Assembly (NCBI GenBank): GCA_028554645.1
Contig: JAQOOI010000018.1
Coordinates: forward strand, 1,488,001 to 1,552,000
Direction: 5' to 3'
Source: Omphalotus guepiniiformis
Taxonomy: Eukaryota > Basidiomycota > Agaricomycetes > Agaricales > Omphalotaceae
DNA: 64,000 bases
The position numbers and the translations under genes were made by a program. Shown piece by piece: positions 4,118-42,435 of this stretch. The notes under the pieces are model-generated. The model made no database searches. It saw only the letters and a list, made by a program, of their open reading frames with translations, and was not told the origin of the DNA. How positions within the stretch are numbered: position 1 is the first letter of the stretch; the number at the start of each line of letters is the position of its first letter.

Positions 4118-4188
4118 ACGATTCCTCGCGATGAAAGATACGGTCGGTTAAGAGATAAAACTCCTATCAAAGCCTCGGATTACCAACT

Positions 4189-6991: not shown

Positions 6992-6999
6992 TATAAAAA
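6992..6999 (+). promoter_or_regulatory. TATA box of the Kre9/KNH-like gene
   Basis: TATAAAAA lies about 185 bp upstream of the ATG at 7180, followed by a plausible 5' leader. Confidence 0.5.
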
Positions 7000-7179
7000 G
7001 CTCCATCATGAAGCGGGGCTATTTTCTCTTCAGTGTGCCTCCGTCACTCACTGTCGACATCAGCCACTGTCTCGAGGGGTCTCAGAGAGCTTTTGCGACC
7101 GAGAACGCCTCAACCTCGTTACATCCACATCTCCGCATCCCATCCCATCCCAATAACGAAACTCACGCCTAACACGAAC

Positions 7180-9104: not shown

Positions 9105-10563
9105 TCATTGCTCATTGACGAACACACTCGCCATTCCCATCCCACTACCAATGCACATGCTAGTCACAAACACTTTTTCATTATCATGCTTGGCAATATT
9201 AAATCCCGTGGCTATTTGACGAGCGCCAGCTACAGTATATTGATGAGAATCACTGAATGAACGACGAAGAAAAAACTCAGTGCAGCCGAGAGGATGTCCA
9301 ATGGCAATAGCCCCACCCCACCTGTTGAGCTTCCCTTTCGAGCTACCATCCTTCCAAGGAATACCGAGCTTTTCAGCTGAGAATACAGCCTGTGAAGCAA
9401 ATGCCTCGTTGATCTCGAAGAAGTCGATATCAGACAACTGCAGCCCAGTCTTCTCAAGAACCTGCGTACAAAAATACGGCTGTCAACACGTGAAAATTCG
9501 ACGACAAGACCTTGCATACCTTGGGAATGGCAAACGCGGGACCAACACCCATTATTCTGGGCGGTACGCCGACAGCCTGCGCAGCGACGAACTTGCCCAA
9601 GATCGGCAAACCCAACTTCTTCGCCGTGCTCCGTCTCGCCAACAAAACTGCCGCAGCACCATCCGACACCTGCGACGCATTACCAGCATGTGTCGAACCG
9701 TCCTTCTTAAACACCGGTTTAAGCTTAGCCAAGCTCTCCTTCGTCACGCCATCTCTCACACCATCATCCTTCTCCACAACGATCTGCGATTCCTTTTCTG
9801 ACTTGGGATCAATCCAAGTAGCTTTGATGGGAAGAATCTCGGGTGTGAACAAGTTTTGCTTCTGAGCTGCAGCGGCTTTTTGGAATGACAGAGCAGCAAA
9901 TTCGTCTTGCTTGGCACGATCCACTTTATGGTCGGCAGCAACATTCTCAGATGTGATACCCATGGGAAGAAGACAGTCGGCAGCCTCGGGGTTGGACAAT
10001 ACGAGGTCAGAATAACCATCAGCGGAGGCTGAGGGGCCATAACCGAATGTCATCGATTCGAAACCAGCACCTTGAAAGAAAAAAAGGATGAGTTATACGA
10101 AAAAAAAACCATGCGAAAGGCGAGCGCGCACCAATGCCAATGTCAATCTGACCTGTCCTAATTTCGTTGGCGATCTGGTTAACCGCCGTCAAACCACTTG
10201 AACATTGCCTATTGATAGTATTGATAGGAGTCGTATTGGGAATCCCAGCGGCAAGAGCAGCCATACGAGCAACGCTGGCACCTCCAGAAGGCGCTAAGAC
10301 ATTCCCAACCGAAATATCGTCAATGAGAACGGGGTCGAGCTTCGTAGAAGTATACGCATGTTTCAAAACATGAGTGAGTATCTCCTCCGGTCGTGTATCC
10401 TTAAAACCGCCTTTCCTAGCCTAGTAAAAAAGGTCCAAATTCAGTGAACAGTCCTACACGGAGGGGAAAAAAGACACGCCTTGGTGACAGCTGAACGAAT
10501 TGCACAGCAAACGACTACATCGTCGTCATGCTTCTCCAAAATCTTTGTTCGTGCAGCAGACAT
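9105..10563 (-). CDS. Acetyl-CoA C-acyltransferase / 3-ketoacyl-CoA thiolase
   Basis: Catalyses thiolytic cleavage of 3-ketoacyl-CoA in fatty-acid beta-oxidation. Exons on the minus strand: 10563-10480 (or 10478), 10420 (or 10415)-10132, 10070-9520, 9461-9105. Thiolase landmarks are present: catalytic Cys in INRQCSSGLTAVNQIA, NASQVSDGAAAVLLA, DFFEINEAFASQA, GGAIAIGHPLGCT (active-site His) and MCIGSGMG (second active-site Cys). Expected family length is about 400; this model gives about 426 because 17 codons (9228-9278) stand between GHPLGCT and GARQIA with no usable GT..AG intron. The first intron has either an AAG|GC donor, or a GT donor two bases later with a shifted acceptor; both keep the frame. 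I see neither a convincing PTS2 at the N-terminus nor a PTS1 at the C-terminus (VNEQ), so peroxisomal location is unproven. Confidence 0.9.
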
Positions 10564-11245
10564 TATAACTCGATTCGATTCTAGAGGGTCCGTAGAAAGC
10601 AGTGGTGGTGGTGGTATGAAAGCGAAGGAACGGTAATCCCAAAAAACCGAACGTGGATTATAAAATGATGTGTAGCATGTGATTTTCCGAAGCTGATGTT
10701 ATGTAAGTATCGGTGGCGGGACCGATATTGCCGGATTAATCGATTAATGCTTCAGTTGATTTTGATTTCTTTCAATTTATTTTTTGTCGTCTTTCACGCT
10801 TTTCAGTCATCCGGCTACCTGCAATTACCGCTCGTTCATTCCGTCTCCTTACATTGAGCATCTCCTCGGTCAGGCATCCCCGAGGTCAGGCATCCCCGAA
10901 GAATGAATCACGGTCAGTGTATGGTGTGCGGTATGAACTGTACGTTCATATATCATTATGTTTTGGTCGGTGATTCCCTCTTCCTGAGCAACGCTGCATT
11001 TTATGGTTTTTGCAGTTGGGTCAAGATGTCTACGAGCAAGTTTTCCAATGGCTCAAATGGAATTATCAAGACGAGGTTGTAAGCTACGAGGAAGTGTCTT
11101 CTCCAATCGCATTCACTAACTGATGATCTTTCGGTGACGAAGGTTTGACAACAGGAAATTGTTTGCACTTATACACATTTAATTTCATGAACAAGCAAGC
11201 TCAAGGTACCACAACTTCAGGCCTTCAGGGGTTACGCCGGGGTAA
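10564..11245. other. Intergenic between thiolase and MYND gene
   Basis: No gene recognised. There is a short tandem duplication (GTCAGGCATCCCCGA twice) near 10870-10900. The thiolase promoter must lie just above 10563. Confidence 0.5.
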
Positions 11246-22716: not shown

Positions 22717-24117
22717 TCAGTTAGGAGTATTCGCCACAGTCGTGCGTCCCCTGCGTATATCTTCCCATCTGCATCTTGTATTCGTGCTAGTCCAGCACCT
22801 AGTATGTCCCCTAGTCCGGGTTTTTTGCCAGGTTAGGGGGGATTTTTTCTTTCTCCACAGGTCTTCTGCGAGCTCCCATATCAGGCCTTGTTCTGTGCTC
22901 TCACATTCAGTTAATATATGCTCCATGGTTTCAAACTTCCCTGGGCACGCCAGGCAGTAAGCGCGCTCTTGGAGTTCTGGTGGGGTTGAGGGTCGGAGCC
23001 AGTGGGAGCCTAGCCAGTATGCATCGTGCATTGTCATCCATAGGTATTGTCTTATCTTCCTCGAGAAGTCTTTGCTTTTGATCGCTTTCCAGATGGCTTC
23101 CGACGTGGGTATGTAGCCGAACATGTCCTCGGTCTGGATCTGGACTTTCTCTAGTATGGCTTCCGTCCTCTGGCGGCGGTGGTCTTTCTTAGCGACTTTG
23201 ATCTCTCGTATAGCTCTATAGGCGAGGGTTTGAGTCACAGTCGAAAGTTTGATCCCCGTGAGGGTGAGCTTGGGGTCCGTGGTTAGGTTTACAGGGTCCA
23301 CTGTCTCTTTTTCTGCTCCTGTCTTCGCAAGTTTGTCAGCTTCCTCGTTCGCTCTGTGGTCGCTGTGGCCTTTCACCCACTGGAAGTAAGTGAGTGCCCT
23401 TCTCGCCCTTATACTTGCGAGCGTGCTGCGAATTAGCTCTCTGTTGGGTACTTCGGTGTAGCCCCGGTCTTCCATGCTTTCCCTATTTTTGTTTATGTGG
23501 TCTAGCGCATATCTCGAATCCGAGATTATTAGGACTTCGTTGGTAGGGGGTATCGTCTCTGCTGGGTGCTTGATCGCCACTACTTCTCCCGTTTGGTTGG
23601 AGTGGTGTATGTTGTCGGGCAGGTGCAGGGCTCGGTTTCGTTCATCATTGATTGCGAAGAAGACTCCGGCGCCTGCCACCGCATTGTCTTCGCCGTTGTG
23701 GAAGCATGAGCCGTCAGTGGCCACTTGGATTGTTTCTTCGTTTATGGGTTGGGTAGTGGGGGTTGCGGCTGGTGGTAGGTCGTTACATACCGATCCCGTT
23801 GTGAAAACTCTGAATATGTCTGCTAGGTGTTTGCCTGTGGTGAGTCCGGGTTGGAAGGTTGTCCATTCGTCGTGTGGGGCTCGCCATTCTTTCTCGAAGT
23901 CTTCCGGCAGGTCTGAGCGTGGGTCCCATTCGGGAGGAAGGAGGTCTAGTAGCTCTTCTGCTCGCTCTGCGCAGGCGTGAGGGTTCCCGCAGGTTGTTGT
24001 TCGTCGTACTCGAACACAGTCATTGCATGCGCAGTTGGATCGTTGCTGGTGCGCTGGGTTTAGGAGGATGGACGCGATGTCCTGAGCGTCGCCTGTAAGG
24101 AGCGCGTGGTGGTTGTT
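22717..24117 (-). CDS. LINE ORF2, C-terminal part: Cys-rich segment, RNase H and CCHC-like tail
   Basis: This continues ORF2 in the shifted frame from the A6 run to the stop at 22717. It holds ALLTGDAQDIASILLNPAH and a Cys-rich segment (CACNDC, then C and H/C). RNase H follows with its four acidic sites: VATDGSCFH, GEVVAI, ISDSRYAL and DHRANEEADKLA. Near the C-terminus is the CLAC, then METMEHILTEC motif usual in Tad-type elements. The only in-frame ATG start (23724) is at the RNase H itself. In the ancestral element this was one protein with the endonuclease-RT part. Confidence 0.82.
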   Translation of the reverse strand, partial: NNHHALLTGDAQDIASILLNPAHQQRSNCACNDCVRVRRTTTCGNPHACAERAEELLDLLPPEWDPRSDLPEDFEKEWRAPHDEWTTFQPGLTTGKHLADIFRVFTTGSVCNDLPPAATPTTQPINEETIQVATDGSCFHNGEDNAVAGAGVFFAINDERNRALHLPDNIHHSNQTGEVVAIKHPAETIPPTNEVLIISDSRYALDHINKNRESMEDRGYTEVPNRELIRSTLASIRARRALTYFQWVKGHSDHRANEEADKLAKTGAEKETVDPVNLTTDPKLTLTGIKLSTVTQTLAYRAIREIKVAKKDHRRQRTEAILEKVQIQTEDMFGYIPTSEAIWKAIKSKDFSRKIRQYLWMTMHDAYWLGSHWLRPSTPPELQERAYCLACPGKFETMEHILTECESTEQGLIWELAEDLWRKKKSPLTWQKTRTRGHTRCWTSTNTRCRWEDIRRGRTTVANTPN

Positions 24118-27100
24118 TTTTCAGGCAAAGGCTGGCTGCTGAATGGTTGAGTCTCCGGATGGCTGGATCTGCCTCCCTGTGGTACCAGATTGGGATCTGC
24201 CTTATGACGTCCCTGGGGAAGGCTAGTCCTTCAGGGCGTAGGTGGTATTTACGCGCAGTCGCAACCATTAATTTTAGTTCGGGTGGTAGCTTGGATGGTT
24301 TACCTATGCTCGTTTGCCAGGATTGGAGGAAGATGTTCAGGCGGACCTTCTGGTCGACATTTTGCTCGGTTTGGGGGACGTGTTTTGCGAAGAGGGCGTC
24401 TGCAATGTAGGCCCACAGGGGGCGGTCATGGCCTAGTTTTAGGTACGCCTTAAGCCACATTATTGTGATGGCTTCGTTGCGTGCTTGTAGGTCCAGTACT
24501 GCTTTCCCCCCAGTGGTGGCTTTGTTAAGGATGGTTTCTGCATTTACGGGGTTGTGGGAGCGGTCGTTCCACATGAATCTGGATATACGTTTTACAAGGC
24601 GGCTCTCGACTTCGGAAGGCATGCCTTGGACTACTGTGAGGTATTGTGTGAACCCGCCCGGGACCATTTGGACTATGTGGCGTCGGCCTTCCATAGTGGG
24701 GCCAGACTTGCTCCAGTGCAGTAGGGAGGTGTCAATGCGGTCGAGCATGGTATTCCACAGGTTAGTGGAGTTGAAGTTATTTCCGTACCACCCTCCGAGG
24801 ATGCGTGACGCTTCATTTTCTTTTGTTATTCTGATCCAGTCTGGGAGGGGGATTGTTGTGGGTGTGGTTGTTCGTGTGTGCTCAATGCGCTGGCGGTAGG
24901 CTTTCGGTCCGATTGGTATTATCTCGGTTTTTGTAACATTGAATTTCGCGCGGGAGGCAATGCACCAGGTGTTTAGGAGCTGTTGGAGTTCGTCGAAGCT
25001 GTCGTGGGAGGACAAGAGAACGGTGGTGTCATCCGCGAACAGGTTGACGATTAGCCGTTCATTCAGACCTGGGATATTAAATCCTCTTAGGGGTGAATTT
25101 CGTATCATCGCGGCAAGGGGCTCTATGGCGAGGTCAAAAAGAAGACAGGACAGTGGGTCGCCTTGGCGTACACCGCGTGTGACGCGATACTTAGAGCTCT
25201 GGTGTCCGTTTATATATACTTGTGTCTCCGCGTGAGCATATAGCGCTTTCACTGTATCAATGAAGGACTGGGGCAGTCTGAATTTTTGGAGAGTTTTCCA
25301 CAAGTAGTCGTGGCTGATTTTGTCATATGCTTTTTCTTGGTCTAGTGCTACTATTAGACCCTCCTGCTCATAGGCTTCTGCGTAGTACATGATCATTCTA
25401 ATCAATTGTGTCTGGTCAGTGATCTGGCGCCCGGGTACGAAGCCTGCCTGGTTCGTATGCAGCAGGGACGGGGCTACTTCCGCTAGGCGTATTGTAAGTG
25501 CTTTGGTAAAGATTTTGTAGTCTGTGTTGAGTAGGGTGATAGGTCTATAGTTTGATATAAAGGTTTTATCGTTCTTTTTGTAGATGGGGCACATCCAACC
25601 TTCTGTGAAAGCTGTGGACGGGTCCACTCCGTGCGTTCGGATATCGTTGAAGGCTCTAGTCAGTAGGGCAACGATGTTGAAGGCGGGCCGGTTGCTGCCG
25701 TGGTCTTCGGCATAACGTGCGTGTAGCGCTTTCCAGAGTTCATATGGTGCTCCGTCAATTCCTGGCGCGGTGTCGTTCTGCGTGAGGCTCAGTGCTTCCG
25801 AGACAGTCAGTTCGTCAAGAGGGCGGTCGAGGAAATTATGTTGTGCTTGGGTCGTTTGCGCAGTCAGCGAGCGTAGTACTGACTCGATCACCTCGTCTCT
25901 GTTCCCGGGTTCATTTTCGAGACCATCAAGCTGGAGGTTTTCATGGTAGTCGCGGGCTAGTTCTGCCATTTTTCGCGAGTTTTTCTCGTATATCTCCCCA
26001 GGTGGTGTTGAGGGTGGATTTATGTGTTCGGGTCCTGTTGGTGGCTCAGGCTTCCGCAGTGCGTGGATGGGTTCGCGTGGGTTCTTCTGTTTGTTGACCT
26101 GTACCCAGTATTTGCTAACGGTCTCACCCTCGATCCAGTCTCTCGTGGACACTTTCTTCCGTGTCTTTTGGTGGTGTTGCTGTGTTAGGCGGGAGAGTTT
26201 TGTTTTAATTGCTGCGGAGGTTGTCTTTCGCTCTTGTTCGGGCGCTAGTGTATCATTGTTGACTTCATTTAGAAGGTCTTCCAGTTCCCGTTGCTGGCGT
26301 TGAAAGAGTGGGGTGATTGCTCGGCTTCTGTCCCTTGCTTTCTTTAGGACATCCGTTTTGAACTGGGCTAGTATCCGTTGGGGGTTGTTCTCGTCTGTAC
26401 GGTTCTCAGGCCGGAGGTTTCTGAGTTCGGTTTGGGCTTGCAATCCTCTCTCATGGGCGAATTTTTTGAAGGCTTTGTCCTGCAAGACGTGGTGTGGCAT
26501 CGTCCATCGTCCTTTACCCATTGAGGGCCCCGCCTCGCAGGTAATTTGTACCGACACCATGCTGTGGTCCGCGTGTGGTACACCGCTTTCCTCAATGATC
26601 CATTCTCGAGCTGTCTTGAACACTTGGTGCGAGACGTAGATTCGGTCTATTCTGGATTGGGAACCAGTGTCAGACTGGAGGTATGTGTAGTTTCGTGTGT
26701 CTGGGTATGTGTGACGCCACCCGTCTTTAAGGTGGAGGTTGAGTTTTAGGTCGTCCAGGGCGTCTACGATGTCATTTGAGTCTTCGTGGCTGGGGAGTCG
26801 GTCTAGGACTCCTTGTTCTACGGCATTAAAGTCTCCTGCCATCATTTGGGGCTTAGGGGTCCGGGAGTGATCCTCATAGTATTTAGTGATTTTTACCCAG
26901 AAGGCCGCGTTGTCGGCGGGGTTGTTGGGTGCGTAGACAGCGAGCAGGTTCAGTTTGGTATTTTCGTGCCATTTCGTCTGTAGTAGAAGTGCCCGTCCCG
27001 GGACAATCTCAGTCGTTTTTGCACCCGTGGGGTCGAGTAGTTCCTTGTTAATGGCGAAAGCTACGCCTCCCCGTCTAGTGGGGTGTTCCGGGTCAGATGA

Positions 27101-27925
27101 GGCAAATATTTTGAGTCTTTTGGAGAAGCGGGTCTCTATATCTATTCTTCGTTCCTCAGTCATATGTGTCTCTTGGACCATGAGTACAGCCAGTTTCTTG
27201 TGGCGCATTAGCTGGTTGACATGGTTCCATTTATTATCTGTGTGGAAGGCGCTAGGGTGTCCGTAACCCCTGATGTTCAGTGAGGCGATACGAATGGAGG
27301 GACGACTCGATTTACGAGTGGTGTTCTTAGATCTCAGGCGGAGATGGCGTGGTAGGTGCTGACGTTCGTTGGAAACTGGGTTTTCAGTCCTCATTCTATT
27401 CAAGAATTCACTTCTCCCAGGCGGGGGTGTGGCCACAGGCTGTGGCGTTTGGGCAGGCGGCCCAGGGGCATGCTGGTTAGCAGTAGGTGCATGGTCTGTA
27501 GGCGGCAGACTTTGGGCAGGCGGCCCGTTAAACTGAGGCCCAGTGGGTGCATTCGCAGGCAGCGAATGGTTTGCGGGGGGTAGCGAGTCTCGGTCATCGC
27601 CAACTCTGTTTGCGGAGGGCTCTGGAGACCTGTTCCCCCCCGTGGGTAGAACATGCCTGTTGCCGAAACCTAGCCCGCCTTCATTCGAGATGTGACCAAC
27701 AGGCACGTCGACATCCCCTCCAGCAGAGCTAGGCCGAGTGCCGGTTTGACGTCTGTCGTTTAGCGTGTGTGTTAAATCTGTAGTATGTAAAGGTGTAGAA
27801 GCAGTTAGCGCTCCACTCAAGGCTGCCGTCCTTGAGCTTCGATGCAGGTTGCTAGTAGTCCTCCTTGTACCTACTCGGTACGCAGAGGTATCCGTTTTCA
27901 CGGTTGGCCCTACCAGCCTGGCCAT
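24020..27925 (-). CDS. LINE ORF2: AP endonuclease and reverse transcriptase (frame ends early)
   Basis: 1301 codons. The N-terminus is low complexity. An APE-type endonuclease covers about residues 210-450: IASLNIRGYG, VQETHM, AGDFNAVEQG, SRIDRIYVS and HADHSMV, i.e. the Asn, Glu, Asp-x-Asn, Ser-Asp-like and Asp-His motifs. The reverse transcriptase covers about residues 680-1000, with YRPITLLNTDYKI, AGFVPGRQITD, ALDQEKAYDKI, GVRQGDPLS and the catalytic FADD. The frame shifts at an A6 run (plus T6, 24118-24123) just after SLCLKK. The normal continuation (HHALLTGDA, a Cys-rich segment, then RNase H) is in the +1 frame, so the last 30 or so residues of this ORF are an artefact of the shift. Confidence 0.88.
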   Translation of the reverse strand: MARLVGPTVKTDTSAYRVGTRRTTSNLHRSSRTAALSGALTASTPLHTTDLTHTLNDRRQTGTRPSSAGGDVDVPVGHISNEGGLGFGNRHVLPTGGNRSPEPSANRVGDDRDSLPPANHSLPANAPTGPQFNGPPAQSLPPTDHAPTANQHAPGPPAQTPQPVATPPPGRSEFLNRMRTENPVSNERQHLPRHLRLRSKNTTRKSSRPSIRIASLNIRGYGHPSAFHTDNKWNHVNQLMRHKKLAVLMVQETHMTEERRIDIETRFSKRLKIFASSDPEHPTRRGGVAFAINKELLDPTGAKTTEIVPGRALLLQTKWHENTKLNLLAVYAPNNPADNAAFWVKITKYYEDHSRTPKPQMMAGDFNAVEQGVLDRLPSHEDSNDIVDALDDLKLNLHLKDGWRHTYPDTRNYTYLQSDTGSQSRIDRIYVSHQVFKTAREWIIEESGVPHADHSMVSVQITCEAGPSMGKGRWTMPHHVLQDKAFKKFAHERGLQAQTELRNLRPENRTDENNPQRILAQFKTDVLKKARDRSRAITPLFQRQQRELEDLLNEVNNDTLAPEQERKTTSAAIKTKLSRLTQQHHQKTRKKVSTRDWIEGETVSKYWVQVNKQKNPREPIHALRKPEPPTGPEHINPPSTPPGEIYEKNSRKMAELARDYHENLQLDGLENEPGNRDEVIESVLRSLTAQTTQAQHNFLDRPLDELTVSEALSLTQNDTAPGIDGAPYELWKALHARYAEDHGSNRPAFNIVALLTRAFNDIRTHGVDPSTAFTEGWMCPIYKKNDKTFISNYRPITLLNTDYKIFTKALTIRLAEVAPSLLHTNQAGFVPGRQITDQTQLIRMIMYYAEAYEQEGLIVALDQEKAYDKISHDYLWKTLQKFRLPQSFIDTVKALYAHAETQVYINGHQSSKYRVTRGVRQGDPLSCLLFDLAIEPLAAMIRNSPLRGFNIPGLNERLIVNLFADDTTVLLSSHDSFDELQQLLNTWCIASRAKFNVTKTEIIPIGPKAYRQRIEHTRTTTPTTIPLPDWIRITKENEASRILGGWYGNNFNSTNLWNTMLDRIDTSLLHWSKSGPTMEGRRHIVQMVPGGFTQYLTVVQGMPSEVESRLVKRISRFMWNDRSHNPVNAETILNKATTGGKAVLDLQARNEAITIMWLKAYLKLGHDRPLWAYIADALFAKHVPQTEQNVDQKVRLNIFLQSWQTSIGKPSKLPPELKLMVATARKYHLRPEGLAFPRDVIRQIPIWYHREADPAIRRLNHSAASLCLKKQPPRAPYRRRSGHRVHPPKPSAPATIQLRMQ

Positions 27926-28259
27926 GTGTGGGGGAACCTCAAGCTTACCTGTCCGACCTACGGGGATAGAGCGTCAGTAAATTCATCTTGAGGGGGGTGG
28001 GAGTCGTGGTGGGTGTCTGCGTGCCAGGCGGGCCCGTTCCCTTAGGTTTCAGACACTGAGAATGTCGCTCTCTTATGTGGGGTATGTAGGTTTCCACTCT
28101 CGTTGTCGGTCTTAGCGTTGGGTTTTATCGTGGTCAGTGATATGGGGGACAACGAAATTTATTGTCTATTTTACGTATACGGGGGGGCAGCGTGTAGGGA
28201 CAGGACGTGCGTGTAGGGTTCGCATTTTAAAGAGAGTGTAAATATGGCCGCACGGCCCG

Positions 28260-30536: not shown

Positions 30537-31213
30537 CTATGTGCTGTAGTTGTAATGTCCTTGTGCAAATTTTCTTCTAGTTATTAATTCTAATTCGTCT
30601 AGTCTTTCCTCGTCTTCTTTTAAATCTGCACTTGGATGAGTTGTAAAAAGAGTGCAATCAAATGTCTGAAGGAGTCTGATGTTCTGTCTGCCTCTGCTCC
30701 TCGACAGCGCAACGTACGCGCTGAAGGGCGTCAGTTTTAGACCGGTCGGTGGTTGATAAATGTCTACTACAACTCTATTAATTGTCTGGCCTTGACTTTT
30801 GAAATCTGTAAATGCGTAACCCCCAGCTATTAGAAATTGTTTTCGAGCCGCTTTCGACTTGTTAGTTTTGAAAGTGGTTAGCGTTGGCGTCACCGGTAAA
30901 ACACCAATGGGTAAGCCCGGAAGATGTACTTTGCAATCGCCTTCGACCTTCAATAGTATTGCTAAGGGCAAGAATTGAAGGTGTACGATAGGTTGATTTG
31001 AAAGGGGTGTGAGCTCTCTCGAATCTAAGACTATGTCCTGGCAACTTGTACTGCTATTATTGCTGCAACGAGACTTGCGACGTGTATACTACCAATTTCG
31101 GCTCACCCGCAAACGATTCAAAAAATATAATTGCTCAAACTGCTTCGCAGCAAGGTTTTCGTTGACTTCGTCAACACCTAGTATTCCAAGAGCTGGGCAA
31201 AACGCAAACAAAA
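30537..31213 (-). pseudogene. PIF1-like helicase C-terminal fragment
   Basis: The C-terminal domain of a PIF1-type helicase is clear: ARKQFLIAGGYAFTDFKSQGQTI, INRVVVDIY, TPFSAYVALSRSRGRQNIRLL, ending at 30537. Upstream (31213-30980) coding continues with EVNENLAAKQFEQLYFLNRL and QDIVLDSREL. It joins across the KDZ insertion to a stretch right of it (42436-42530, minus: GRLALERLLIQNTNPSL) through a GT..AG pair. The Walker motifs are not in the window. Such fragments are common remains of Helitrons or of captured PIF1 genes in basidiomycetes; which of the two cannot be told here. Confidence 0.7.
31206..31213. repeat. KDZ element target-site duplication, left copy
   Basis: AAACAAAA, identical to 42428-42435. 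Confidence 0.85.
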
Positions 31214-31485
31214 CACCTGATCAGCCCACATAAACCATCAAATTAGACGGAACCATCCGCCGCGTGGTTCCGTCTAGTTAGACGGCTTACCGGGCACCAT
31301 GCCTTTCCTCTGAAAACGGCTCGCAATTTAGGGGACTTGAAGCTTTTGAGAGTGCTCGGGTAAGTAAGGTATGGGTGTCCTGTCATCAACGTGCTGACGC
31401 ACGACTCGTCACGCGTCTCGCTTCTCTCCCGACCTTTCCGACACCGTCTGTACCTCTCCGCTCGTCGTCGAGCTCGACGAGCTCA
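31214..31485 (+). repeat. Left terminal inverted repeat of the KDZ element (272 bp)
   Basis: Inverse of 42156-42427 with only about two base differences seen by eye (C/T near 31298 and T/C near 31449). It contains a sub-terminal hairpin with arms TAGACGGAACCA and TGGTTCCGTCTA and, at its inner end, the self-complementary run GAGCTCGACGAGCTC. Confidence 0.92.
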
Positions 31486-31551
31486 CTGTAATCTGTCAAT
31501 TTAGAAAGAACCACTTCAAATGTATAGTTAATATATTTCTAATATAAAAGG

Positions 31552-34500
31552 CTACACATTTGGACTATCGTTCGATACACTCAGGGCACTGATCAACTTA
31601 ATAGCCTCCTCCTCCTCCTCCTCTTCCTCCTCCTCCTCCTCCTCCTCCTCGTCGTGCTCCTCTTCATCGTTGGCAGCAACGGAAGGTTCTGCTGGTATGC
31701 TGGGAGCAGACCTTGTTCTCCAATGCGACAGAGATCCTTGACCAGGGGTTAGTGTTTTGCGAGGAAAGGCAGGATATTTCAGAAGCTTCTGCAGGCGTGT
31801 TGTATGCAACGCGAAACAACGCCCACGTCGTTGTCTATATAGAGCAACCTGGTACGCAAGGGTAGGGTTGTTCTCTCGGAATTCCTCCTCTTTTGCGAGC
31901 AAAAACGCAGCTTCATCTTCAATGTACGTTATGAGGCGCCGTATCTCTATCTGCAGCCTCTCAATTTCCTCAGCAGCCCGTTGTGTCTTGAAGTATTGAT
32001 CCATCGCAGCACGTCCAGCCGGTGTTGCCCAGATTTTCTCCCGCACGTCATTCCTTGCATCACGAAGGAGGTCAAACTCGGCAAGGAACGTGTATTCGAC
32101 AATCGTATCCCAATCGAGTGGAGGACGGGGAGGGGAGAGTTGGGCGGCGGCGGCATTGTAGTTGGCAAGTGCTGTTTTGATAGCTTGCGACCTGGCCTTG
32201 AGTGCCTTTCCTATATGCTTTCGTAACTTATAACCTTGTGATAGGCTGTTGAGATGGTATTCTGCGAGACATTGAAAGACTCACCTGTTTGAGACATATT
32301 CATCCGTGTTAGCTCGAACATGCGAGCCACCACTAGCCCTTCTAGTCTATCGAGGCAGCACTGATAGGTGGAACGAGCCACCAGCTTCTCAGCAGCTATC
32401 CACTCCTCCGAGCCCTCCATCCACCGGTCTTGAGGTGCGATATTCAAGCGCCATTCCATATCAAGCACGGCCTGCTTTGCATCATGGAGGGCTTCGTAGT
32501 CTCGTCGGCGTTGTTTCTCGATTTCATTCACCTGCTGTGATTCCTCTCTTGTTGACCCACTTGCGACTGTCTGCTCCGTGGTATTGATCCATATAGTCTT
32601 CGTGTTGGAGTACTTCAACCTGTAAGAACATTCATATTAGTATTTCGAGAGCATTCGCAGGTTCGAATATACGTACTGTGCATCCCTTAGCCTGATGAGC
32701 TTCTTGTAATATTCCATCTGGAGAGTCTCCTCTTCAGGCTCCTTTTTCAGCGAATGAAGATATAGCCTTTCCTCCTCCAACCAACCCTCTACCTGCTGCG
32801 GCTCTGTTACGCCGATTGCATTGAGCGAACGAAGCATGGTTTGCTCAGTTCCCAGAATCTCCACTGCTCGCTTATAGCTGATGGAAAGAATCTTGCTAAC
32901 CTGAGGGAAGGTCTCGAAATCGTCCATGTGGCGTGCGTACACTGCAATCTCTTGATGACGATGGAAAACGCTGGCATGTCGGACAGAGCTGGCAAGTGCA
33001 TTGGATCTAGAGAAGAAGGACTCGCAACCCTCCAGGTCTTCGAGCCCTGTGCCTTTCACATATGTTCCCAGGTTATTTGTTTGGCAAAGTCGAGCGTGCC
33101 CATGTCCGTGAAATATCCCAACCAAACTTGTGTAGTTGTGAGACTTCGCGAGGGCTGCCAGGGGGCTGTGACGGACAGTCGACCCGAACTTGCAGCCAAT
33201 GTCGTAACCTCCGCCCAGACCATTACCGAGAAGACGAATGAGCTGGTTGACGATTGCGAGGGGATATTTCGACCTGTAAATACCAATTAGTTGAGTCTTG
33301 ATATCCGCAGCGGCGACTTACAATTCCCCGCTTTGAACCATGTCAGCGATGAGGAGAATGAATCCATGGCGACACAGAGAGAGAAAGACGCCTGTCTCAT
33401 CATAAATTGACCACATTTTAGACGTGTTGGACTCCTTCATGTTGTGCCACCGGTCCTCGCATGAGTTTTCCTCCTCCTCCTCCACATCCTCCCATTCGTC
33501 CCAATTTGTCCTATCCCATCGGTCAACCTCAGCACGGCTCAAAAAGTAATCCAATCCTCCAATGCGTGAATCCAAACGCTCCTTCGACGGCCCCAAACCA
33601 GCCACTAAGTTCCCATCCTCATCAACACCAGCATCTCGGCATTTGAAACGTTTCAGCGAGTCATTGCCATCCATCGTGAAAAGCATGCTGAATTTGAGCT
33701 CTTTCTCCCCCTCGAGCTTATAAAGACAGCATGGACAAGCATTTTTTAGACGCCAGTCTGATGAGTCTCGTCCGAGTGCAGTCTTGACCCGTATATCGAC
33801 ACGTCGCTGCACCTCCAGATACAAATCGTAGGCGATAGAGAATTGGTGATAGAAATACGGCTTGTACGGGCGACTGTGAATGTCACATAAGCCCTTAACA
33901 AACGATTGGATTGAAAGACGAGGTGCTCGTACATGAAGAACCCTGAAGAGCTCGAGAGTGCGAATAGAAAAGCCAAGGGAGGCGTCGGATGGGGCACAGG
34001 GGAAGAATCCATGTTGAACGAACGAGGAAGACACGTAAGGATCCTTTTTGTCATCAATATAGATGCATTGCTTCTGGACACCTGTAGTACATGTCAGCTA
34101 GTTCAGAGTTTTCAATGAAAGGGAGATGTACCGAAGAGATCTGCCCCAGTGACTACTACGAATGGCAACTCCGATAGTGTTGGTGTTGTAGGGTCATGGG
34201 CCATGCTTGAAGCACCCAAAGACGCACTCCATTCCATATATGACTGCACCATTGAGTCGTACTGGGGCGCAAAAGCCAGGTTACGTCTTTGAGTACGGTC
34301 TCTTCGTGTACGGTAGTCCATGCGTTTCCTACACGGACATAAATATCATGTAGCTCATAGGATATCACCAAAACTCACCTTTTACCTCGCAGTTCTTCTT
34401 GAAGTTCTAAGATAATATCTCCAAATTCCCCCCCTTGATGACTGGTCTCCATAGTAGTATCCCCAGCCAAGACATCCTCCAGCTGTTGATTACCCTCGAA

Positions 34501-34710
34501 TGTCTCGCAATCGAAGCTATCGTCGACCGCCATAAATTCAAAAACATTCGGAGGTGCGTCTGAGATTTGCAAAGCTGCTTGCTCTTTGATTTGCGTGATC
34601 TCCTTGGGCTTATACAGGCGCGATGTAGCGGGACGAGTGCTTATTCCAGCACCTCCAGATATGTGGCGTAGTTTTTTTGAGCTTCTGTGACGATTTGCAT
34701 TCTTGCCCAT
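31552..34710 (-). CDS. KDZ-family transposase
   Basis: Six exons on the minus strand (34710-34379, 34328-34132, 34081-33322, 33273-32677, 32619-32285, 32234-31552) join in frame to 967 residues. Landmarks: a basic N-terminus (MGKNANRHRSSKK), SFVQHGFFPCAPSD, ACPCCLYKLEGEKELKFS, then TMDGNDSLKRF with the first catalytic Asp. IYDETGVFLSLCRHGF, ADMVQSGEL, GGGYDIGCKFGSTV (second acidic site), GIFHGHGHARLCQ and GLEDLEGCESFFSRSNALAS (third acidic site) follow; these are the RNase H-fold blocks of KDZ transposases. The C-terminal third is coiled coil, ending in a long Glu run (about 20 Glu; plus 31599-31652). ATG 34710 was chosen over the upstream in-frame ATG near 34770 because conserved sequence starts after it. 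All splice phases close and no stop interrupts, so it may be active. Confidence 0.92.
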
Positions 34711-35046
34711 CGTTGACGATTGACGCAGTGCGCGCGTAGCACGTGAATAACAGAACGCGCGCGTGGCACGTGACATGGCAAACCACTTGTCGCTACTGAT
34801 CAACAACTTGTCAACTCTACACTCTACACTCGCGTCGCCGCTTGTAAGTCGTTCATACCCTCATCTCTTCTTACCATACAACTATCAGAACCGTTCTACA
34901 TAGAGGGCATGATTTCAATGCGGAATCGTTCCCGGGTCCAGGGAATCATGCTGGCTATGTGCAATGGCTCTGGTAATTGTATGGCAAGAAGAACGTTCCT
35001 TCATATACTTCAAACGTTGATGCTTGCGAGTTCTCTTAGGTTCACA
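34711..35046. promoter_or_regulatory. Divergent promoter between the KDZ transposase and TET/JBP gene
   Basis: 336 bp separate the two starts, so both genes probably share a bidirectional control region. Small direct repeats are present (GCGCGCGTAGCACGTGA and a close copy GCGCGCGTGGCACGTGA near 34730-34775, each with a CACGTG E-box). No TATA box is obvious. Confidence 0.5.
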
Positions 35047-36602
35047 ATGGGTAACACGAGAAAAGTACGGTACTCTTCTTGCATGTGAGTTTGTGCTAAG
35101 GCGCTCCTTCTCTAGCTACGATCTGGAAAGACCTACGGAGACTTCGACTGGCGTGCTGAGCTGAAGGATGCACGCGTCTTTACCGTTGACGTCGAGTCAT
35201 GCCCCTCTCTTGAAGCCCTCTTACTTCGTGCCCTGGATAATGAAACGAAATCGCCTGATGAGGAGCTGGAAGCATTTGATGATGGCGGGCAAGAGAATTC
35301 GGCAGACCCAATCAGCGAGACGACAACCGCAGCGGAAGAAACCACCACCACTCCGACAAAGAACGATAGAAAACGCGATGCGCCAAATCCCAATGGCAAA
35401 AAGTTCAACCCCCGTCACGCAAAGCGACGTTGTCGACGAGCTGCCGAATTCGAAGCATCAGGCCACTTGCATGCGAATAGAAGCGATGCCCTCGACTCCT
35501 GTCAACCATATCCCACCGACGTTGACGTTGAGGATCTGCGTGCAGCAGCCGGTGGATTTGTGGGTGTCGACGCAGAGTACGTTGGCGCGAAGAATATTCA
35601 CACACCACTGTGGCTTCATGAGAATGGATTTCGCTATGTGGAATGGGAGGGGAAGTGAGTACACCACAATTCGTCATGTGAGATTATCTGCTCAATAGGA
35701 TGTAGCTATGCGATACCAATCGTCGACTCCAAAAACCGTCTTTTTGCTGTTGCCGTGAAGAGAATCAAAGAGGTAGGATATCAACGTGCCGTCGAGGAAG
35801 CATGCGCAGCTCTGGAGAAAGCTCGCGCCGATACGACCTTTGAGCCGAAAGAGAAGGAGCATAAGCGCGGTGGCTTCCCCGCAGCTGCATTTGGTTGGTC
35901 TATTGGACAGGGCCAGAAGCGTCCCACCCACACTGCTGGACTGCGAAAGGATCTTATGCAGAAGCTTGTTGAATTGCCGTGCTTTCAGCGAATTGCTGCT
36001 GCGCAGGATGGTACGTCCCGGGATAATCGCTTGGTATGTTTACTGATAGGATGGGTCAGCTGCATTCGCCTATTGGTCTCCAAAGAATTATGTGTACTAT
36101 AAAAAGAGCATGGATGAATTGAAGCAACGTATTCCCCACTTCAAACTGAACTTCGACCGGAGCATCTTTGCTTGCATCACTTTAAACTTCGGCCCTCGGA
36201 CTTGCACCTATATCCATACTGACACGAAGAACGCTGTCCACGGTATGTGTGCTATCACTTCAGGTGGTAGCTACGACCATAAAAAGGGCGGCCACTTGAT
36301 TTTGTGGGACTTGAAGCTTGTCATTGAGTTTTCCACCTGGTTGTACCATCTTGATTCCCTCCGCTCTTCTCCGTCACTCCTCCAACACCCCTGTGCAGGA
36401 TGGAGAAACGCGCTACTCCATAACCCAGTACACTGCTGGAGGAATCTTTCGCTGGCTTGAGTATGACGGAAATACTGAGAAGCAGCTGGTTCAGAAGCGG
36501 AAGCGCGCCTTGCTTAAACGCCTCTTCGACGAGCGGGGTAAACGCTGGGCTAAGATGGTTGACATGTTTTCAACGTTGGATGAGCTTCGCAAGGACCTAT
36601 AG
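35047..36602 (+). pseudogene. TET/JBP-family 2-oxoglutarate/Fe(II) dioxygenase, frameshifted
   Basis: TET/JBP enzymes oxidise 5-methylcytosine or thymine in DNA. Exons 35047-35064, 35116-35654, 35706-36010 and 36060-36602 give the fungal family blocks. These are YAIPIVDSKNRLFAVAVKR, HKRGGFPAAAFGWSIGQGQ, QDAAFAYWSPKNYVYY, TYIHTDTKNAVHGMCAITSG (His-x-Asp iron ligands) and GGHLILWDLKLVIEF. The next block, FPPGCTILIPSALLRHS (distal His) with ETRYSITQYTAGG (2OG-binding Arg), is one frame later. The break is at a T4 run, 36329-36332, where T3 would keep the frame. The exon total is one base too long, confirming a single extra base. The N-terminal half is low complexity with a basic patch (RHAKRRCRRA). 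Either a recently dead gene or a sequencing error in the homopolymer. It is divergent to the transposase. Confidence 0.88.
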
Positions 36603-37604
36603 TGGTTGTATGCCTATATACGAATGATCTTATCACAGCTTGCGATCATGTACACGTATTGTATCTGAATATAATCTCTGTATCTGGCTCTATATGTTGA
36701 TTCAGAGTGAACTATTGAAGTATAGTTGTATGTCCGAGATGCCCGACGTTCGAGCTCAACGTGAATAACGATGAAAGCAGCATGAGTATTCATCGTAACA
36801 TCTTCTAGCTGGGTGAGTAGAGTCTTGGATACTCAATACACAGTCTTAAGTCTTTACATACTGAGTTCTCATTCATTTTGTGAGTGGTACATGAAGTCGT
36901 TACGATCATAGTCAAGTATCCTACTTATACCTTAGACAAATGTATGTTATGTTGTTGATTTTTGTGTAAGTCACTCAATCTCATGATATATGCACAGAGA
37001 CCTCAGATCCAAGATTTTATTGCAAGATTTGTTCATTTACACTCACTACAACCTTGTAAGTACCAAATGTAGAGGGTCTTGCAAGTCATCTGTAGAGTCT
37101 ACAGAGAGTTCCTGAGCATTGAGGATTGCTATATACACTGTATATACATCCATAGGCTCTCTAGACTCATTTCTCTTATGGATGCCACTCACGATGAATT
37201 CAGTATTACTTGGGAACTTTACAAAAGAAATACTTGATTATTATATCAATTGTACATAATACACGGTTAGAAAAAGTGACATAAGATTTGTATTGACACT
37301 CCTGAGGTCCTTGAATGCAGTTTACTCTATGTCTTTGTCAATCTGAGGAAGTTGAGGCCAAAGTGTGGTTGACAGTCGGAGTACAAGCAGGAGCATATAC
37401 CTTTTATGGACATGTCTGTTTGTCATTACTCTCTCGCGCAAACAAGAACTTCAAAACTTTCGGCCACTTCAACCTAGTCAGCACCATACAGAAACTACAA
37501 AATAGTTTCCTATTACCTGCTTCATGTCTCAAATTTAACTGAATGCCTACACAGAGAAAGATGACAAGATAATTTATTCCTCGGCAAAAATACAAGAATA
37601 TCTA
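36603..37604. other. Non-coding stretch inside the KDZ element
   Basis: About 1 kb of AT-rich sequence between two convergent genes. Small open frames only, and no motif recognised. Confidence 0.5.
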
Positions 37605-38927
37605 CTATTCGTCGTTGTCAAAATTGAAAGGAGGATCCCAGGCTTGGACTCGATCGGCCATGTATTCACGCACAAAGAAAGCATTTGCGTCTTCAACTGT
37701 GAAGAATACCTGCAACGCCCCTCCACCCCATCCGAGACCTTCTCGAAGTGCCGCATGCCTGGAGAAAACAGTGGCCGTGAGCTTCAAAGCAGACAATGAA
37801 TAACGAAAATAACAGAACGTACACATTTTCATACACTCCAGGGTTGACACCTTGAGTAATTACCCAGTAGTAGACTATGTCAGGATTTGAAGGAACTGAG
37901 TTGAGACGTTCGATTACACCACTTTTACAGGCTTGAAGGTAGGCTGCCTTCGCTGTCGGGTAGGAGAAAAATCCCTTGAATACCCCACCTTTGTTCTTGT
38001 CGGCAGAGGGAATTTGAGACCTGAAGGAATAAAATGAGACACTCTGAAATGAAAAAAAATTGCCCAACACACATACCATGATGAGAAAGCACCATGCTTG
38101 GAGCCACGATAGAGTACGTAGGCATTCCAGCCTTTCTTTGAGGGAGAGCGCTGTGGAGTCTGGTGAACCGGCCGCGATGGAGTCGAAGGAGGCGACTTAA
38201 ACTTGTAGCGGGGTAGCTGTGGCAGCTTGGAGGGAGAAGCCGGTATTTCTTTTGAAGTATGCAGAGTGGGACGCGCTGCCGCAGCACTTGACTCACCAAC
38301 CACCTCATGAGAGCGACGTAGCTGGTCTCGACGGCTTTCATTGACCGCGCAATGCAGCTGCGCTTGTTCGAACGTATGTTCGTCTTCGTCGTCATCGGTT
38401 GTTTCATCATCAGTGGGAGGTTCATCTGTTTCTGACGGGGAATACAGTTCATCTGTAAGGACTAATATTACCTTCAGTAACACACAAAATAAAACAATCC
38501 ATGACGACGTACGAACTTGAAGCTGCTCCATTCTATCAGTCAAGGCAGCTGCAGACAGTGTGTGTGTACTTAGTATTACCCGCATATGAAAAGAATTAAG
38601 AGCAAGTACTCACCAAGATGTTCCTGGCCATCCTTTTGCGCCCTCTTCAAGTCTTATGCCGGTAGCACATTGAAGTCAGAGTTATACATTCGAGCATTAG
38701 CAAGGAACGTACCAGCAAACATGTCGGACAATTGAGTTGCACGCAAGCGTTGACCTACGCAGAATGTCAACCATTCAGAACACAGATATATGAACAAAAA
38801 AAAGTACCATGACGAGCCTTGGGCCTGAGTTTTTCCGACCTTCCCTTCCCTTTTTCTTTGTCTTTTCCTGAAATAAAAAACATCTATGAACGGAAGATCA
38901 ACATGGCAAGTAGCACGTACCTGCCAT
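37605..38927 (-). CDS. KDZ-element cargo protein with two RNase H1 N-terminal (viroplasmin)-like modules
   Basis: Eight exons on the minus strand (38927-38921, 38867-38808, 38754-38713, 38652-38614, 38548-38513, 38452-38077, 38020-37823, 37758-37605) join in frame to 303 residues. A basic start (MAGKDKEKGKGRSEKLRPK, nuclear-type) is followed by a coiled coil and an acidic linker (TDDETTDDDEDE). The first module is KGWNAYVLYRGSKHGAFSSW with GGVFKGFFSYPTAKAAY; the second is YYWVITQGVNPGVYEN with ALQVFFTVEDANAFFV. Both fit the RNase H1 N-terminal / caulimovirus-VI fold that binds RNA-DNA hybrids or dsRNA, with no RNase H catalytic domain attached. The first exon is only 7 nt. Role in transposition is unknown; hybrid or DNA binding is an inference from the fold. 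Confidence 0.75.
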
Positions 38928-39283
38928 TCAGTCTTGAGGTATGATGGGGGGAAGAAAGAGAGAGAGAAAGTCGGAGTCGAACTCGAACATGGAGTAACTA
39001 ACAGAGGGATAACCGACCAGCGCTACCATGTGGATGGGCGCTTTCATGCTTATCAGCGATAACACCTGACCAATCTTTGAATTTGTAAGCACTTATCTTT
39101 TATCACCACCCGTCATCACAACATCACAACATGGGTCGGCGTCCGCTTGCAGGGAAACACGACAGCGACGTGTTTCAGCGCGTTTCACGCAATGAGCATC
39201 GCGGTCAAACGTGACTTTGTTGAGCGAAACTTTGTGAGTGCTTACACATTCAAAACTGGCCTTGCACGCTCATCTTCATCCTC
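38928..39283. other. Divergent spacer between two KDZ cargo genes
   Basis: 356 bp between divergent starts, so probably a shared promoter. No TATA box was recognised. Confidence 0.45.
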
Positions 39284-41835
39284 ATGCCAGCCAATTTAAT
39301 CAACCTCCTGAACCCTTCAGTCTCTGAGCAGCCATCATGCAATGAATATCTCAAGTCAAACACACAGGCCTTCACCGAAACCTCCGAGTACCTCCCCCAC
39401 AACTACACCTCTGATCTTTCGTTCTCGACAGCTGGGCCGTATGCTCAGTCATGGGGCACCACCAACAATCACGTTGATCTTCCCTCAATGCTGACATGGC
39501 CTCTAGACCATCACTCTGCTCATCTTGCTGGCAGTCTATACCAGCCGGATGCCGCCTTCGACGCGCTCAATTTCGAAAACTTCCACTTTGACGACTTCAG
39601 TCACAATGACTTCAGTCACAATGACTTTGGTCACAGCATTGCGGCACCCCATAGTAACTCAGACTATACACCTACCGCCTCTGTCAGCAGCAATAGGGTG
39701 CAGGAAAACCATCCTTGCGATGATGTGTACCCCTCGTCTTTCCTATCCTCCCAAAACGACTTCATTTCACCTACATCTTCTGCACCGAAAACTCCTCCGT
39801 GCAGTAATTTCAGCACCTCACCCTCTACACACAATCAAGTTGCTTCAGACGTGGATGCTGTATGCGCAAACTCAACAGAAGCCCCGATTGAGTTTGTGAA
39901 CACGTTCGGACCTGCACCAGCCCGTCTACCACCTTCAAGGAACGATCTTATCCCTCCTAAACCTTCTCAACCAACGCCAGCCATCAACCCTGATGCTGCA
40001 GGCTCTCAGAATGACTACCTTCCCCCTGCACCTCCTCGCACTTCCTACAATGTTCCAAACACAACCACCTCGTGCGCCGACGCAGAAACGCATGCTAACG
40101 GAGGCTGAGAAAGCTTCGAGGGCTTTGAGCCGAGCAAATATCAAGGCCTTGCAGGATCAGCTTGCTTTGGATATTAAGGAGGCAACCGGTGCCTATGAAG
40201 AACGTCTGCAGGAAATTGCTGACAAGTACAGCTATACCCTTGACAAGGTTAAGGGTATAGCTAATAATATGTCTCGCGCAAAGGGCAAGAGGGCACCTGC
40301 GGCCCACAATGCCCTTCTTCATTTCGCAAGGAAGGATTTGGTTGCTAGCGGGAGTGCGTGGTTCATACTTTTATCCAAACCTCATTGCTGATTATTGTGG
40401 TTCAATAGAGCTCGCCCCAGGTGCACCAATGCCCAAATTACAGGAGTTACGCCACATCATCAACACAGACGAAGACTACCGAAAGCTGCAAGAGGATACG
40501 AAGAAGATTGAGGAATTGAAACAGGAGCTCGCGGAGGATCGTGCACTCAAGGAAGTCGGTGTGCGAATGTCAAAAGTATCGGTTCAGCAGGACGTACGAA
40601 GCACCTTTGACAACGCTATGATGGAGGTGAGTGTACTTTTCCAAGCAATGCAGCATAGTGTATCTAACACGGTATAACTAGCTGATCATGCTCTCAAAGC
40701 GTACTGGAGCCAAGTCATTCCTCTACGTCACCCGGGGAACAGCAAATTGCTCATCTGCACCAGCATTTGGGACCTCCGACGATACAGTGGAGGACTTCTT
40801 TCGCGAGCAAATGAAAGTCGATCCATGGAACCTCTTATCAATGTTCGAACTATGGTCTATTTCTAGAGACGTATCTCGTGAGTACTTTTGGTACCGTCCG
40901 GTCTTTAAATACTGTCTCAAAGGTTGATTTAGAGATACGACCCAAGAATTCATCAGAATGGCGAACCGAATGTGTATCAATGATCAATGCTGGCCTCCGT
41001 GAGTCTCTATGTTCTCTCTGTGCGCCGTATATTGCTGAAAATGCAGGTTTCACACTACAGGTCAAATTGTTCGTAATCCAGAGTTACACATGAGCTACGA
41101 CAGGTATCGCACAGCGATTGTGCAGACCTATCATGTCCGACTCATTGGCTGGCCGTTCAAGGAGGAATCGAGCAACGATGACGCTGGCGAGCCCCTACCA
41201 AAGCTCATAAGCCCTCATCGTATCACTTCCATGGAGGATGTACGCCTCCTGCATCATCGCCTCAAGACGGGAACCTGTCGGTGGGAGCCTATGACAGCCA
41301 AGGATGTGGATCAGGAGATGGAGGAATACAGGAGGTTGAAGGACAGTGGCAAGTCGTCGTCACATGGCTCTTCAGGAAATAAGAAGAGAAAGAAAGGTGA
41401 ACGGGGCAAGGATAAGGAGAACGGAACGTACAGAGATATTGGGGAAGGGTGTGCCGGTGTAGCGATGATGATAACAACGATGACAACGATGACAACGCCC
41501 TTCATGAAGACACCAATTCTGCTGCACGTTCTACTGCGAGGAAGAGGCGACGTACGAAAGAGACGACAGATCATGGCCTGCGGAAGTCGACGAGCAAGAA
41601 GGCGAAGCAGAAAGTCAGTCAAGGAAGCCGAACGAAGGAATCATCTACGACACGGAAGCCTGCGAGGAAAAAGACACACAAAGCAGATGCTGCTGCCCAG
41701 CTACCCCCAACGTACAAGAGTAAAGAGTTCGTTGATAGTGATAGTGACAGCGACGAGGACGACGTCAACGTCAACGTCGAGACGGGCCTTCGCAGCGGTG
41801 GAGCCGGCGCTGACAACGACAACGACACTGCATAA
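39284..41835 (+). CDS. KDZ-element cargo protein of unknown function (basic, nuclear-type)
   Basis: A model starting at 39284 has exons about 39284-39895, 40002-40353, 40409-40626, 40682-40870s, then pieces around 40937-41001 and 41061-41428, and a last exon to 41835. The N-terminal 200 residues are low complexity, with a tandem DDFSHNDFSHNDFGHS repeat. The conserved core is MLTEAEKASRALSRANIKAL, LDIKEATGAYEERLQEIA, GVRMSKVSVQQDVR, SFLYVTRG and YHVRLIGWPF, then SPHRITSMEDVRLLHHRLK with CRW. I recall this core from many Agaricomycete hypothetical proteins, often near transposons. The C-terminus alternates basic and acidic runs (RKRRR, KKAKQK, DSDSDSDEDD). The intron at 39896-40001 and a 35-nt one near 41429-41463 are inferred from frame continuity. 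Function unknown. Confidence 0.65.
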
Positions 41836-42155
41836 GCAGCCCCTCGACTTTGTCTCCCTGCCCCCATTACACACTCAAAAATCTTCACTCAATCCCTTCC
41901 CCTGCCACTGCCATATACCATCCTCACTGTGGCCTTACATGGTCAATAGATAGTTGAAATAAATATGCTTTCAGTCTTATTTTAACCAATGATGCAAGTA
42001 ATCCTTCAATTACTCCTAGAGAACAGTGTGTTACATGAGAATAAGAGCTATTAAGTCCACAAGTATAGCTTGAAAGGTACAAGGTTGAGCTTATAGTGCA
42101 GGGGAAATCTTATTGGAGGTGTAGAGGTGAAATATAAGGAAATATAAGGAAATGT
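41836..42155. other. Non-coding inner flank of the right TIR
   Basis: 320 bp, AT-rich, with a short direct repeat (AAATATAAGG twice near 42130-42150). No gene. Confidence 0.5.
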
Positions 42156-42427
42156 TGAGCTCGTCGAGCTCGACGACGAGCGGAGAGGTACGGACGGTGT
42201 CGGAAAGGTCGGGAGAGAAGCGAGACGCGTGACGAGTCGTGCGTCAGCACGTTGATGACAGGACACCCATACCTTACTTACCCGAGCACTCTCAAAAGCT
42301 TCAAGTCCCCTAAATTGCGAGCCGTTTTCAGAGGAAAGGCATGATGCCCGGTAAGCCGTCTAACTAGACGGAACCACGCGGCGGATGGTTCCGTCTAATT
42401 TGATGGTTTATGTGGGCTGATCAGGTG
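42156..42427 (-). repeat. Right terminal inverted repeat of the KDZ element (272 bp)
   Basis: Inverse of 31214-31485 over its whole length, with the same sub-terminal hairpin and inner palindrome. Confidence 0.92.
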
Positions 42428-42435
42428 AAACAAAA
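42428..42435. repeat. KDZ element target-site duplication, right copy
   Basis: AAACAAAA, directly after the right terminal inverted repeat. Confidence 0.85.

Follow-up and report, generated by a model that had tools for sequence, protein, structure and literature searches.

Transposons of the KDZ type (Kyakuja, Zisupton and Dileera) that carry a TET gene have already been published from fungi, including Agaricomycetes in which a KDZ transposase and a TET/JBP gene share one transposon (Kojima 2025, PMC12730594). According to that paper, Kyakuja families have CA..TG ends and the TET-bearing ones possess 7-bp target-site duplications (TSDs) and no terminal inverted repeats (TIRs), while Zisupton shows 8-bp TSDs with TIRs. 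In Cryptococcus neoformans the element KDZ1, about 11 kb in length and with TIRs of 241 bp and TSDs of 8 bp, has been caught moving; KDZ3 is about 10 kb long with 169-bp TIRs, and the TSDs of KDZ2 and KDZ3 measure 4-8 bp (PMC12810828). The transposases of these elements were described with KDZ and CxC1 domains, and the passages on them mention no TET gene (PMC12810828). Here we describe a TET-bearing element, copy A, in a 64,000-nucleotide stretch ("the window") of Omphalotus guepiniiformis, namely positions 1488001-1552000 of contig JAQOOI010000018.1 (C18), in a genome of 42.5 Mb in 80 contigs. This agaricomycete element is almost certainly a KDZ DNA transposon of the cut-and-paste kind. While TET-bearing KDZ elements as such are known, the combination of long TIRs with 8-bp TSDs, a TET subfamily with Cys and Asn at two specificity positions and a recurrent set of partner genes appears to be new.

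Copy A spans 11,214 bp (31214-42427; Table 1). Its two TIRs match at 270 of 272 nucleotides, TIR positions 84 and 236 being the exceptions, and diverge beyond nucleotide 272; chance repeats are ruled out by a 99% match over this length. AAACAAAA is present exactly at both flanks, abutting the outer edges of the TIRs. Both the long repeats with about two differences and the 8-bp duplication had been noted in a preliminary description of the locus and were recovered unchanged. With these ends copy A falls outside the published definition of TET-bearing Kyakuja, although it shares the CA..TG termini; the elements described here have TIRs of 237-351 bp and 8-bp TSDs. It resembles C. neoformans KDZ1 in its dimensions and corresponds to Zisupton, as described in print, in its TSD and TIRs. 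Each TIR of copy A also holds a 25-nt subterminal inverted repeat (84% complementary, 9-nt spacer), a candidate transposase-binding or hairpin site.

Between the TIRs lie four genes: a transposase gene and a TET/JBP-type gene, which are divergent, followed by a gene for a tandem RNase H1-N protein (gene 3) and a gene for a basic protein (gene 4), which are also divergent from each other. The layout agreed with the preliminary description, and it recurred in the same order and on the same strands in a diverged element, F (C18 ~235,535-254,993; transposase -, TET +, tandem RNase H1-N -, gene 4 +). Over aligned codons the amino-acid identity between F and A was 53% for the transposase, 46-54% for TET, 42% for gene 3 and 39% for gene 4. 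Because it recurs in such a diverged element, the four-gene layout must be inherited rather than accidental. Moreover, in all four genes third codon positions differed at 0.65-0.71 and first and second positions at 0.19-0.46, which is the pattern of purifying selection; this measure is biased to conserved stretches, comprises 140 codons of gene 3 and excludes the unaligned N-terminal part of gene 4. F itself is degraded and holds many inserts, and its inverted ends do not start with CACCT.

Table 1. Features of copy A (window coordinates)
Feature	Position	Strand	Remarks
Left TSD	31206..31213	.	AAACAAAA
Left TIR	31214..31485	+	272 bp, begins CACCTGATCAGCCC
Subterminal inverted repeat, left arms	31231-31255 / 31265-31289		within left TIR (31231-31289)
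Transposase gene (KDZ)	31552..34710	-	967 aa, six exons; PF18758 E 1.9e-72
Transposase exons	34379-34710, 34132-34328, 33322-34081, 32677-33273, 32285-32619, 31552-32234	-	
TET/JBP-type 2OG-Fe(II) dioxygenase gene	35047..36602	+	frame broken near 36329; start codon a matter of judgement
TET exons	35047-35064, 35116-35654, 35706-36010, 36060-36602	+	
Gene 3	37605..38531	-	268-aa product with two Cauli_VI domains (RNase H1 N-terminal); start uncertain
Gene 3 exons	38077-38531, 37823-38020, 37605-37758	-	
Gene 4	39284..41835	+	basic protein without an assigned family (772 aa in B and C); in copy A the frame is interrupted near 40058 and 41457
Gene 4 exons	39284-40353, 40409-40626, 40682-40877, 40933-40998, 41061-41835	+	
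Right TIR	42156..42427	-	272 bp
Subterminal inverted repeat, right	42352-42410		within right TIR
Right TSD	42428..42435	.	AAACAAAA

Parts of the set were found at further loci. At C41:120-126 kb a transposase (-), a TET gene (+) and a weak gene-3 match (-) followed the order of A; the gene-3 match had an E value of 0.004, reached 1e-8 in BLASTP against the F protein and stayed below the Pfam cut-off, and the closest gene-4 match lay 19 kb from the TET gene. Element G was present in two copies with 99.85% identity (G1, C65:212631-224073; G2, inverted, C65:893940-905385) and combined transposase, TET and gene 4 in the order and on the strands of A with 237-bp TIRs and 8-bp TSDs; its third gene had no Pfam match, and gene 3 is unconfirmed there. 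In family H transposase and TET were convergent with gene 4 beyond them, and the ends of two copies (on C20 and C53, ends only) showed 351-bp TIRs and 8-bp TSDs.

Genome-wide counts were obtained by collapsing matches by hand to one per locus and are lower bounds. There were at least 65 TET loci and at least 55 KDZ loci, and 26 KDZ loci had TET within 10 kb, with the two genes divergent at 10 loci, convergent at 11 and in tandem at 5. Gene-4 matches formed 17 loci, of which 13 had TET within 10 kb compared with 3.1% expected; those without a nearby TET were the truncated copy C and the loci on C41, C79 and C19. These loci are not independent, as A and B, G1 and G2 and five H-like loci repeat families, and we judge that about seven families are represented. 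Of the 65 TET-like loci, 39 are over 10 kb away from every KDZ locus detected, among them relatives of the window TET on C63, C78, C27, C19 and C12, and may be carried by other transposons.

The transposase gene of copy A was recovered, as originally described, as an uninterrupted frame of 967 residues without a stop. The KDZ profile PF18758 matched residues 307-547 with 243.9 bits (cut-off 26.6), while CxC domains remained below their cut-offs (CxC3, 16.3 bits against 26.6; CxC1, 12.3 bits against 26.9). In Pleurotus a CxC2 region has been reported to precede intact KDZ elements (PMC7641404).

The divergently transcribed neighbour of the transposase gene had been described as a TET/JBP gene, and our analysis supports a product predicted to be a dioxygenase of the TET fold. 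This assignment is based on the predicted fold of a homologue together with conserved catalytic residues. This homologue, P0004, which shares 46% identity with the window protein, was modelled with a pLDDT of 81.9, and the top 16 rows of its structural matches were CcTet, NgTET1, TET2 and CMD1; the absence of other families from that list was not used as evidence. The HxD...H iron triad and the 2OG-binding Arg were near-invariant in 66 homologues. The window protein has the motif HTD, and the Asp was present in 65 of the 66 homologues with a gap in the remaining one, which excludes the HxE of the PE-type TETs of Kojima (2025). A search returned 202 homologues. Among the 120 listed, most were annotated as hypothetical and the top matches came from Dendrothele, Stygiomarasmius, Lentinula and Marasmius with 46-51% identity; those bearing organism names are presumably all from mushroom-forming fungi. 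Tet_JBP (PF12851) was matched at E<=0.1 by 26 of the 66 scanned homologues (best 2.8e-6) and 2OG-FeII_Oxy_3 by 19 (best 6.3e-4), and PF12851 stood in the precomputed annotation of 4 of the 120. A profile search of the PDB with the TET alignment gave 7 matches, none of them a dioxygenase.

The structural alignment with CcTet of Coprinopsis cinerea (PDB 7vpn, 7w5p, 8jkk; 14% identity) points to a difference in the active site. Where CcTet has Asp337 and Gly331, the subfamily has Cys in 66 of 66 and Asn in 65 of 66 homologues, and the window protein has Cys and Asn as well. In contrast, Asp337 and Gly or Ser at position 331 are stated for the Kyakuja members of the AG-type TETs (PMC12730594). Only one of seven genomic Tet_JBP matches exceeded the Pfam cut-off, that at C46:181495-181911; its two specificity positions are occupied by Asp and Ala, and it therefore belongs to another TET subfamily than that of the element.

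The RNase H1-N-like protein was borne out by PF01693 (Cauli_VI), which matched two stretches of gene 3 both in the window (29.2 bits) and in element F (32.5 bits; cut-off 21). It differs from other PF01693 proteins in its tandem domains without a detected RNase H catalytic domain: Cauli_VI was the sole Pfam match of the 268-aa protein at E<=1. The protein probably binds RNA:DNA hybrids or double-stranded RNA (dsRNA). A genome search with PF01693 gave three matches, which all lay on C22 and away from the elements; at the elements, the gene-3 domains are probably split by introns. A gene with a PF01693-type domain has also been reported from a Pleurotus Helitron (PMC4289320). Gene 4, found divergent from gene 3 as initially described, encodes a protein with a Ser/Pro/Asn-rich N-terminal part and a C-terminal part with Lys/Arg-rich and acidic stretches, probably a nuclear basic protein. 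Nothing in Pfam exceeded the cut-off (best DUF2894, 17.1 bits against 25), NCBIfam gave no match, and an AF2 model of the conserved C-terminal segment, built with four sequences, was poor (pLDDT 63.6). Neither gene 3 nor gene 4 (region 255-640) had homologues in a large protein database at E<=0.001; since that search depends on shared exact words, the result does not imply that the genes are unique. In the literature searched, genes 3 and 4 were not found described as partners of KDZ transposases, although an earlier mention is possible. The terms "rnase" and "viroplasmin" do not occur in the main text of PMC12730594, and its Table S1 may list partner genes.

Using the left TIR of A as genome query, we located further copies. 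Copy B (C22:2267127-2278359) is full length minus four bases and has CTAAGACC at both flanks. Its left end lacks the first four TIR bases and is joined via a short shared sequence, so that the flank repeat exceeds 8 bases. Over 11,180 aligned columns A and B showed 47 substitutions (0.42%). They also differed by 47 indels, of which 43 lay in the first ~5.7 kb of B, and 42 of these were of 1-2 bases. Because short indels concentrate there, the transposase half of B is probably poorly assembled, and the altered left end sits within this half. As B has the same genes, a capture unique to copy A is ruled out. Copy C (C77:106954-111630) covers only element positions 6538-11214; within gene 3 it gives way to some 15 kb of other sequence (C77:111631-126692), the start of which is similar to the ends of inserts in element F, and another 137 bp of the element follow beyond it. 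Copy D is a 403-bp element end on C51. Element E (C22:717086-718831; 1,746 bp, TSD CATATATT) has ends of 126-127 bp that are 90-91% identical to A, and none of its stop-to-stop frames exceeds 94 codons; it is a short non-autonomous relative. The 14-mer CACCTGATCRGCCC occurred 11 times in the genome, always at ends of known elements (control, 0). A clean 8-bp TSD was present in six of the eight elements with both ends read (A, E, G1, G2 and H on C20 and C53); of the others, B had CTAAGACC on both sides with its irregular left junction and F had none.

In the comparison of A, B and C, 31 changes were private to C, 29 of them C-to-T on either strand and 23 of these at CpG. Ten changes were private to A (six C-to-T, all at CpG) and three to B (two C-to-T, one at CpG); 21% of cytosines lie within CpG. 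Unpolarised transitions fell at CpG in 24 of 34 cases between A and B, 30 of 39 between A and C, 7 of 11 between G1 and G2 and 11 of 27 between the ends of F. This pattern fits CpG methylation of transposable elements (TEs) generally and is not proof of it for this element. In copy C, 24 of the 29 C-to-T changes relative to A and B were on one strand, which is a strand bias.

Taken together, the locus probably represents a KDZ lineage with partner genes in which TET counters silencing, the partners assist and copy A is a recent but partly broken member. The transposase would act on the long, CACCTG-ended TIRs and leave an 8-bp duplication, in keeping with the anatomy seen in several copies, and the lineage would carry a partner set consisting of the TET-fold dioxygenase, the tandem RNase H1-N protein and the basic protein. 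TET would most likely counter silencing by oxidising methylated bases that lie on the element or in its promoters, a role which we regard as evenly balanced between true and false. Tentatively, the gene 3 and gene 4 proteins would probably aid transposition or counter-silencing. The low divergence suggests that copy A is recent and was recently active. It probably yields no full TET and gene-4 products and would rely on other copies.

Several observations weigh against this interpretation. Of the profile matches expected from the preliminary description, those to KDZ and RNase H1-N were obtained, but the window TET protein had no match to Tet_JBP at E<=1 in the Pfam profile scan, an outcome that the preliminary description had listed among those that would refute it. 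The TET frame of copy A breaks near 36329 and runs into its first stop at codon 421 of 468, so that HxD is in frame while the distal His and the Arg lie downstream of the break; gene 4 is broken near 40058 and 41457, with the first stop at codon 275 of 775. As a result copy A is structurally complete, with its TIRs, TSD and four genes, yet does not have all four open, and as assembled it does not bear out the self-contained package that had been proposed. Gene 3 was detected only in the A family, in F and, weakly, at C41, and 15 of 27 KDZ-TET pairs had no detected gene 4 at the sensitivity used (12 had one). The ends of F are unlike those of A and no target duplication was detected there. As to mobility, other copies share the boundaries of A, but the predicted empty site was not found, since the joined flanks of A and of B matched only their own halves in the assembly. 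The CpG bias also extends beyond the element, with 20 of 46 and 2 of 16 transitions at CpG in other TEs within F. Finally, KDZ elements of C. neoformans moved while almost unmethylated (PMC12810828), so methylation is not always what restrains them.

It might be thought that the broken frames of copy A are simply assembly errors. The TET break is a single-base homopolymer length difference and may be one, and the assembly has poor stretches such as that in copy B. In gene 4, however, the breaks are 11-base and 2-base length differences at which B and C agree against A, and the transposase and gene 3 of copy A are clean; an intact copy A is therefore improbable. Less likely still, the partner genes would be passive cargo that was captured and carried along, and copy A a decaying relic that would owe any movement to other copies. 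The broken TET and gene-4 frames, the truncated and CpG-depleted copy C and the indels in the transposase half of B would agree with decay, but F has kept the order and strands of the genes and its codons show the pattern of purifying selection, B and C both have an open gene 4, and the G copies are nearly identical.

What TET does on the element is a separate question. TEs of Laccaria bicolor and C. cinerea are enriched in 5hmC and 5fC, and those that are heavily modified are weakly expressed (PMC8889193). The enzyme might thus oxidise 5mC to stable 5hmC or 5fC that mark or silence the element, so that the host would tolerate it, or might mainly serve the host; that a KDZ locus was detected within 10 kb for only 26 of the 65 TET-like loci would suit such a role. 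On the other hand, in C. cinerea genes with little methylation 5hmC is positively linked with expression (PMC8889193), and TET has stayed linked to transposase and gene 4 in families that have diverged, which is in keeping with an advantage for the transposon. We consider marking unlikely. Action on another base or step, for example 6mA or something new, seems similarly doubtful. It is suggested by the Cys and Asn in place of Asp337 and Gly331, because Asp337 of CcTet, conserved in AG-type Kyakuja TETs, is essential for 5mC and not for 6mA; conventional TETs, however, contact 5mC otherwise, so the replacement need not alter the substrate (PMC12730594), and CpG loss in the elements fits 5mC on them. 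Within the counter-silencing interpretation, a two-pronged kit can be imagined, by analogy with the P6/TAV protein of the caulimovirus cauliflower mosaic virus, which suppresses RNA silencing in plants (PMC5734791, PMC3469532). TET with its altered active site would act against DNA marks and the tandem viroplasmin-type protein would shield R-loops or dsRNA against RNA-based silencing, with the gene 4 product as a nuclear partner directing both to element DNA; this extension is speculative and improbable.

TET genes have expanded in mushrooms. That this transposon lineage has retained TET and particular partner genes through deep divergence suggests that TET serves the transposon as one of a set, and the element may be a kit for evading host genome defences. 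The invariant Cys and Asn at the CcTet specificity positions lead to a precise biochemical prediction on the substrate range of a large family of mushroom enzymes. Near-identical copies with and without an open gene 4 in one genome provide a natural comparison.

Other mobile sequences were present in the window. LINE-like retroelement frames lay at 22720-27973 (-), comprising RVT_1 with Exo_endo_phos (24023-27973) and RNase_H (22720-24120), and retroelement remnants at 3-4147 (-) showed DUF4100 and, just below the cut-off, RT_RNaseH_2. The end of contig C18 is about 13 kb past the window and about 35 kb past copy A.

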